Shown here piece after piece: positions 41,264 to 43,184 of a DNA stretch of 64,000 bases. The position numbers and the translations under genes were made by a program. Origin of the DNA: Candidatus Latescibacterota bacterium (lineage in GTDB: Bacteria; JAAXHH01); NCBI GenBank assembly GCA_022822725.1, contig JAJEAN010000001.1:1-64000 (forward strand). The letters are read 5' to 3'. Under the pieces are notes generated by a model. The model ran no database searches and was not told the DNA's origin. It worked only from the letters and a program-made list of their open reading frames with translations. The first letter of the stretch is position 1; every line of letters begins with the position of its first letter.

Positions 41264-42619
41264 ATGACCACGGGTAACCTGCGCCGACAACTGGGTATCT
41301 GGCCGACCACGGCCATGGTGATCAGCGGGATGATCGCCGTGGGGATATTCCTGGTGCCCGCCGGGATGGCCAAGTCGCTGGGATCGCCTCTGCTGCTGCT
41401 CGTCATCTGGCTGGCCATGGCGGGGATGGCCCTCTGCGGCTCGCTGTGCTTCGGAGAGCTGGCCTCCCGCTTTCCCCAAGCAGGCGGCGGATACATCTAT
41501 CTCCGCGAAGCCTACGGCACTCCGACGGCCTTCCTGTATGGCTGGATGTCCCTGATGGTGCTGGACCCCGGCATCACGGCGACCCTGGCGACCGGCCTTT
41601 CGAGCTACGCGGGCCATATCTTTCCGATGGAACCGGTCGCGATGAAGCTGCTGGCCATCGCCGTACTGGTCGTCCTCACGGGCGTGAATATCTACGGCGT
41701 GCGCATCGGCGCCTGGATCATCGTCCTGCTGACCGTGTTCAAGGTCGGCGTCCTCGCGGTCATCTCCCTGCTGGGGTTCGGCCTCGGTCTCGGCGACTGG
41801 TCGAACTTCACGCCTTTCGTGGAGCGGCCGGCGGATTCCGGTCCGCTGTTCGGCGCCCTCGCGGGTGGCATCGTGGGCGCCTTCTTCGCCTTCGCCGGAT
41901 GGTGGGACCTGAACAAGGTGGCCGGCGAAATCAGGGACCCGGCGCGCATCCTGCCCCGGGCGCTGCTACTGGCCGTTGGCATCGTTGCGTTAACCTACAT
42001 TTCCACCAGCGCCGTCTTCATGTATCTCGTCCCCATCTCGCAGGTCACGAGCGACGAGACCTTCGCGGCACAGGCGGGCGAGGTGCTCTTCGGACGCAGC
42101 GGCGGCATCCTGTTCTCCTCCGTGGTCATTCTGTCCATCGTCGGCAGCCTCACCGGGCTTTTGCTGATGGCCCCGCGCGTGTATTTCGCCATGGCCAGGG
42201 ACGGGGTCTTCCTCCGATTCGCCAGCGCGGTCCATCCCTCCTTCGGCACGCCTTACCGCGCGATCGCCATCCAGGGCGGACTGGCCTCGCTGCTGGTGTG
42301 GCTGGGGACCTTCAGCCAGATCCTGGACTATTTCATCTTCGTGGCCGTCCTGTTCATCGCATTGACCGTGGCGGGCCTGTTCGTGATCCGCCGCAAAACG
42401 GCCGATACGCCTCCATACAGGACCCCGTTCTACCCCGTCACGCCGGTCCTGTTCCTGCTCCTCGCCGCGGTCCTGCTCGTGCTGCTATTCGGCAACAGTC
42501 CCGTGCAGGCCCTGCTCGGTGTCGGCGTGACCGTACTGGGCATACCGGTGTACTTACTCGTGTTCAGAAAACAAACCACGCAGCAGAGACCGTCAGGAGA
42601 AGACCATGGCCTGGATTAA
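41264..42619 (+). CDS. APC-superfamily amino-acid permease
   Basis: This 451-residue protein has about 12 TM segments. The N-terminus MISGMIAVGIFLVPAGMA matches the APC TM1 substrate loop (GxG(I/V)F). GGGYIYLREAYG, FFAFAGWWDLNKVAGEIRDP and YRTPFYPVTP are typical of the LAT/APC group. It presumably imports an amino acid or amine, possibly the dioxygenase substrate. Its last 14 bases overlap the AhpD-like gene. Confidence 0.9.
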   Translation: MTTGNLRRQLGIWPTTAMVISGMIAVGIFLVPAGMAKSLGSPLLLLVIWLAMAGMALCGSLCFGELASRFPQAGGGYIYLREAYGTPTAFLYGWMSLMVLDPGITATLATGLSSYAGHIFPMEPVAMKLLAIAVLVVLTGVNIYGVRIGAWIIVLLTVFKVGVLAVISLLGFGLGLGDWSNFTPFVERPADSGPLFGALAGGIVGAFFAFAGWWDLNKVAGEIRDPARILPRALLLAVGIVALTYISTSAVFMYLVPISQVTSDETFAAQAGEVLFGRSGGILFSSVVILSIVGSLTGLLLMAPRVYFAMARDGVFLRFASAVHPSFGTPYRAIAIQGGLASLLVWLGTFSQILDYFIFVAVLFIALTVAGLFVIRRKTADTPPYRTPFYPVTPVLFLLLAAVLLVLLFGNSPVQALLGVGVTVLGIPVYLLVFRKQTTQQRPSGEDHGLD

Positions 42620-43184
42620 GACCGTCTCCGCGTCCGATGGGGACGAACGGCTGCTCGCCGCCCTCGAGGCGCAGCGCGCGCTCTATCCCGCGGAGTACGA
42701 CACGCCCGTGCACCCCACCGACGACGGCACTTCCGGCATCGTGGCGTCCCATTCGCTGATCCCGGAAGCGCTGCACCACGCCTTCGCCACCTTCGGGGTG
42801 TTGCTGTCGCCGGATCTGCCGCTGAGCCGCCGGCAGCACGAGATGATTTCGACCATCGTTTCGTCGAGAAACCGATGTGTTTACTGAATTGATTCGCACG
42901 CAGAGTTTCTGCGTCGGGTCACGTTGGACAGCGAACTGGTCGAAGCGATCAAGTACGACTACGACAGGGCGCCGCTGAGCGCGCAGGACCGGGCGATGCT
43001 GGATTTCGCCGTCCGGATTACCGAGGATGCCACGCAGATCCGGAAGGCCGATCTCGAAGGACTTCGGTCCGTGGGGTTCGACGACGTCGCCATCCTGCAG
43101 ATCACGCTGATCGCGTCGTGGTTCAATTACATCAACCGCGTCGCGGACGCCCTGGGGATCGGGCGGGACGAGGACGATTCCTGA
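42606..43184 (+). CDS. AhpD-like peroxidase-family selenoprotein (TGA = Sec94, CxxU)
   Basis: Read through the in-frame TGA at 42885-42887, this frame gives a 192-residue member of the AhpD/carboxymuconolactone-decarboxylase family of peroxidase-related enzymes. Homologues carry CxYCxxxH at the active site; here it reads NRCVYU then IDSH, so TGA replaces the second (peroxide-side) cysteine. Sequence on both sides fits one domain without gap: [15 protein letters not shown] before, [20 protein letters not shown] and [13 protein letters not shown] after. A hairpin with a GT-containing loop lies ten bases past the TGA. It probably reduces peroxides. Start ATG 42606 follows AGGAGAAGACC and overlaps the permease. 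The alternative is a nonsense mutation splitting the gene. Confidence 0.85.
42898..42914 (+). promoter_or_regulatory. Candidate bacterial SECIS hairpin
   Basis: ACGCAG (42898-42903), loop AGTTT, CTGCGT (42909-42914): a perfect six-base stem with a five-base loop containing GT, ten bases downstream of the in-frame TGA. Position and loop fit bacterial SECIS elements recognised by SelB. Only this short stem is certain. Confidence 0.7.

Follow-up and report, generated by a model that had tools for sequence, protein, structure and literature searches.

An AhpD-like gene with an in-frame TGA, predicted to encode a CxxU selenoprotein, in a Candidatus Latescibacterota genome

The locus and the family of its product

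The window, a stretch of 64,000 nucleotides, comprised positions 1–64000 of contig C4 in a 3.8-Mb genome of nine contigs. An AhpD-like gene was found there directly after a permease gene on the same strand (Table 1). When translated, the frame of the AhpD-like gene was open throughout, and TGA occurred only at codon 94 and at the terminal codon (43182–43184). Under the standard code, the region was split into fragments of 93 and 86 amino acids. Gene callers that apply this code split such genes in two, and the protein is therefore missed or reported as fragments.

Table 1. Coordinates of the AhpD-like gene, its features and its upstream neighbor (positions within the window).
Feature	Position	Strand	Remarks
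APC-type amino-acid permease (AA_permease_2)	41264..42619	+	Last 14 bases shared with the beginning of the AhpD-like gene
AhpD-like selenoprotein gene (predicted)	42606..43184	+	192 residues and a stop codon, codon 94 predicted as Sec; TIGR01926 / PF02627; all-helical model
Cys91, putative resolving Cys of the CxxU motif	42876..42878	+	Unchanged throughout the 32-row alignment
In-frame TGA (codon 94), predicted Sec codon	42885..42887	+	Counterpart of the catalytic Cys133 of M. tuberculosis AhpD
SECIS apical stem-loop	42897..42914	+	Stem ACGCAGA/TCTGCGT (42898–42904 / 42908–42914), loop GTT (42905–42907)

The protein obtained by reading through the TGA scored 116.6 bits against NCBIfam TIGR01926 ("peroxidase-related enzyme"), which was above the cut-off of 81.8. 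The match to PF02627 (carboxymuconolactone decarboxylase superfamily; 35.3 bits, gathering score 23) would by itself indicate superfamily membership only. Two other assignments were rejected based on the curated cut-offs: AhpD proper (TIGR00777; 20.7 vs. 191.95 bits) and the (seleno)protein family NF041238 AhpD_rel_CFYUT (57.8 vs. 175 bits). The latter is likewise AhpD-related and has a CxxU motif, but its model comprises 357 positions. The TIGR01926 proteins are mostly uncharacterized.

The sequence-only reading had described a continuous AhpD-type domain in which the TGA stands where homologs have the second Cys of CxxC. Both points were borne out by the solved homologs 2pfx, 3c1l, and 2oyo, which aligned without a gap through the TGA and carried Cys at the position of codon 94.

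Active site, fold and likely reaction

The AlphaFold2 model of the read-through protein had a mean pLDDT of 92.6 and matched the AhpD-family structures 6k40, 2oyo, and 2prr with TM values of 0.81–0.82. The Cys-type TIGR01926 structures (2pfx, 3c1l, 2oyo, 6k40, and 2prr) shared the fold and the CxxC-type helix with the codon-94 protein, and those that were aligned had Cys in the Sec column. They differed in carrying Cys instead of Sec, and the structural-alignment identity to these peroxidase-related structures was 23–36%. Human Sestrin2 was found among the weaker fold matches of the model.

The relay of M. tuberculosis AhpD consists of Glu118, Cys130, His132, Cys133, and His137, and that of PA0269 of Glu36, Cys48, Tyr50, Cys51, and His55, with Tyr at the His132 position (PMC3141380). 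E79, C91, Y93, U94, and H98 of the codon-94 protein showed a spacing identical to both relays (Glu, Cys, His/Tyr, Cys/Sec, His); Sec94 corresponds to Cys133. All five residues were invariant in an alignment of 32 rows when Sec and Cys were counted as one. In contrast to this agreement, the active site of M. tuberculosis AhpD (1knc, 1gu9) is located near the C terminus, and its fold match was weak (TM about 0.5).

Judging from the identity and position of these residues, the protein is most likely an AhpD-like selenoperoxidase in which Sec94 attacks and Cys91 resolves. The attacking residue of AhpD is its second Cys. By analogy, the product would possess a C-V-Y-U redox center at the beginning of an AhpD-type helix, and Sec94, at the nucleophile position, would attack the hydroperoxide. 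Sec94 would then be resolved by Cys91, with Glu79 and His98 relaying protons and a dithiol donor recycling the enzyme. Peroxide reduction is a moderately likely reaction. Peroxide as the substrate and the nature of the reducing agent are inferred, as is any functional connection to the upstream permease.

A Sec protein catalyzing another reaction is possible, though unlikely: it might perform a thiol/selenol reductive dehalogenation like that of Bmp8, or it might act as a redox switch together with the permease. The AhpD-fold debrominase Bmp8 (6ohi) was indeed among the fold matches (TM 0.73), but it was a more distant one with only 15% identity, compared with the 23–36% of the peroxidase-related structures, and the complete set of AhpD relay residues was present. 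A redox switch would fit the neighborhood of the gene, where the permease is a probable operon partner. Among the 80 named loci, 20 had a homologous permease (45–95% identity) directly upstream (gap −38 to +65), and the relatives concerned bore different phylum labels; in one further named locus, the permease was 1 kb upstream. However, many relatives lacked this linkage, and many from Terriglobia had another neighborhood. It is more doubtful still that the permease-linked, nearly all-Sec subfamily represents a distinct functional group, whose selenol chemistry would have a role beyond general peroxide defense (for instance, reductive dehalogenation or redox-controlled amino-acid uptake) and for which Sec would be the default and Cys derived.

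Decoding of codon 94

After removal of duplicates, 89 distinct relatives were obtained, labeled as Latescibacterota, Gemmatimonadetes, Acidobacteria, and KSB1. Codon 94 was TGA in 88 of them and TGC in one; for the 80 named relatives (GTDB contigs), the corresponding count was 79 TGA and one TGC. The best match contained one internal TGA in all 16 genomes examined of the phylum group. The peptide seeds of the search avoided the TGA region, so that this count was not biased by the way the relatives were found. The closest named relatives were MAGs with Gemmatimonadetes or Candidatus Latescibacterota bacterium as their title.

Compared with relatives of its own family, the part of the gene downstream of the TGA showed dN/dS values of 0.11–0.43, and the downstream residues N177, R178, D181, and L183 were invariant in the 32-row alignment. 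An ordinary stop, which would leave a truncated protein of 93 residues or a decaying pseudogene, is thus very improbable. TGA does serve as a regular stop codon in this genome and also terminates the AhpD-like gene itself, but at codon 94 it was retained in 88 distinct sequences, the 98 codons behind it were under purifying selection with invariant residues among them, and a SECIS and the complete Sec machinery were present. The pseudogene or stop reading was rejected on the TGA conservation, the downstream selection and the invariant residues. A random stop followed by drifted codons, which the sequence-only reading had named as the finding that would speak against it, was contradicted by these data.

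The single TGC was detected at L105:3001–3567 (SICM01000011.1), which belongs to a Latescibacterota MAG (isolate Baikal-deep-G205). This locus, L105, retained the SECIS sequence exactly despite the Cys codon, and a tRNA-Sec was still present in the genome (70.1 bits). A second copy of the codon-94 subfamily was searched for in the L105 genome, and none was seen. The simplest reading is a recent change from Sec to Cys that left an apparent fossil SECIS; the TGC might also be an error of the MAG.

The six codons of the SECIS hairpin were CACGCAGAGTTTCTGCGT (CAC, GCA, GAG, TTT, CTG, and CGT). A perfect stem of six bases with a GT-containing loop, beginning ten bases past the TGA, had been noticed from the letters, and this stem was right (ACGCAG/CTGCGT, 42898–42903 / 42909–42914, loop AGTTT). 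It also folded in RNAfold, which added one A-U pair and thus gave 7 bp and a GUU loop (−17.8 kcal/mol, z = −3.5); 3 of 200 shuffled sequences folded as well as the SECIS region. The published bSECIS rules comprise a loop of 3–9 nt, a stem of 4–16 bp, a G within the first two loop positions, and a distance of 16–37 nt from the UGA with an MFE of at most −7.5 (PMC13188914). Because the loop starts 17 nt past the TGA, the hairpin (stem of 7 bp, GUU loop of 3 nt, −17.8 kcal/mol) was in agreement with all four published rules.

In the 89 sequences, the mean synonymous entropy of the six SECIS codons was 0.10 bits, compared with a mean of 1.34 bits and a minimum of 0.57 bits for 52 other conserved-residue codons of the same gene. 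Three of the codon choices were rare in the neighboring genes (GCA 7%, TTT 10%, and CGT 6%). The upper stem (42898–42914) alone was conserved and was near-invariant in the 89 sequences, including its synonymous positions. The MFE fold extended into a flanking lower stem, which was unconserved in these sequences and was therefore dropped as a part of the SECIS. Since the stem varied little within the subfamily, there was almost no covariation, and the evidence for the SECIS was the synonymous constraint.

Hairpins of different sequence were found at the corresponding place in distant Sec paralogs. Stem pairing across the paralogs was 70%, and the two controls for covariation disagreed: the shuffled sets (mean 65%, maximum 73%) gave no support for it, and the slid registers (at most 53%) did. 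L105 was the sole close Cys homolog, and the distant Cys homologs formed 2–4 of the 7 stem pairs. The Rfam gathering scan of the window gave no match, which is neutral with respect to the SECIS.

It had been noted earlier that selA, selB, selC, and selD were absent from the window, and a search of the parent genome for the Sec machinery had been proposed. All four genes were found elsewhere in the same genome, with matches above cut-off, and their location outside the window is thus no objection. The tRNA-Sec was located at C9:1353092–1353185 (70.6 bits), was identified by ARAGORN as SeC with anticodon tca, and was directly preceded by selB (344.7 bits in one frame). The match for selA was 487.1 bits. 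The selD gene (C9:294246–295187, 263.4 bits) was inside an open frame of 816 codons, which suggests that SelD is fused to a further domain, perhaps an oxidoreductase.

The region C6:55500–59200 contained a SelA-like gene that was diverged (155 bits against a cut-off of 268) and, near it, a gene that resembled AIR synthase and was related to SelD/ThiL/HypE (103 bits against a cut-off of 125). The two were separated by an aldolase-like ORF.

In the proposed mechanism, tRNA-Sec would decode UGA codon 94, delivered by SelB, which would bind the SECIS hairpin located 17 nt further on. Computation has shown the reading frame, the SECIS, the decoding machinery, the conservation, the fold and the spacing of the relay residues, and the insertion of Sec itself is very probable. 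The CxxU selenoprotein first proposed for this gene was supported by the machinery, the TGA conservation and the purifying selection downstream, and the TGA at codon 94 is almost certainly decoded as Sec. That a code change or suppression places another amino acid there, for example Trp or Cys, is hardly tenable: read-through by itself is silent on the identity of the residue, but the TGA column aligned with the catalytic Cys of homologs, a dedicated tRNA-Sec and SelB exist, the synonymous constraint was limited to the SECIS hairpin, and a global reassignment of TGA is ruled out because the gene itself terminates in TGA.

Relation to known selenoproteins and wider distribution

A 2005 report on the Sargasso Sea contains AhpD-like CxxU selenoproteins (PMC1088965), and such proteins have also been described from GOS as "AhpD-like 1/2" (PMC2398784). 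A 2026 review included an "AhpD-like protein, TIGR01926, CxxU" that was predicted with high confidence and was experimentally unverified (PMC13188914). The published proteins resemble the codon-94 protein in the TIGR01926 family, in having Sec as the second residue of CxxU and in a SECIS just past the UGA (PMC1088965; PMC2398784; PMC13188914). The present case differs from them in that the genome with its machinery is known, Sec is the state of 88 of the 89 subfamily sequences, and some relatives are permease-linked. The previous statement that the family was known only from metagenomic surveys was roughly right, but the family and its motif had already been catalogued (PMC13188914), which lowers the novelty. 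Since TIGR01926 CxxU proteins are already published, the codon-94 protein does not represent a new family.

The use of Sec in Acidobacteriota is on record for Occallatibacter riparius (PMC12013277). Literature searches on selenocysteine in Latescibacterota and on AhpD selenoproteins in sponges yielded nothing on the gene by title or abstract.

The additions made here are modest and consist of the genome-resolved spread, the near-absence of Cys forms, the near-frozen SECIS, the permease link, the fossil SECIS and a second AhpD-like selenoprotein. Through them, a selenoprotein family that was catalogued but lacked experimental verification is placed in a genome that has the full decoding machinery. 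The near-absent Cys forms, the near-frozen 18-nt SECIS across several phyla and the change in L105 make the subfamily a good test case for the retention of Sec, and the linked permease offers a handle on function.

A sample of 60 genomes was evenly drawn from the phylum to which an Acidobacteriaceae MAG belongs. In this sample, the majority of the TIGR01926 matches above cut-off had one TGA, and CxxU was the motif wherever it was read in the TGA-bearing loci retrieved. A tRNA-Sec of at least 60 bits was found in 16 of the 19 genomes carrying the TGA form vs. 23 of the 41 non-carriers (Fisher p = 0.03). The three carriers (3/19) without a strong tRNA-Sec match may be incomplete MAGs or may reflect a stricter filter.

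The genome that contains the codon-94 gene also possessed a second AhpD-like selenoprotein gene of TIGR01926 (C9:1213426–1213866, 135.3 bits) with the motif NECEYU-VRHH. The match of this second paralog (L040:1501–1941) to the Pfam sestrin family PF04636 was sub-threshold (19.2 bits, cut-off 29.4). A GGGGA..CTCC hairpin was located 3′ of its TGA, and this TGA was present in nearly all searched genomes of its family.
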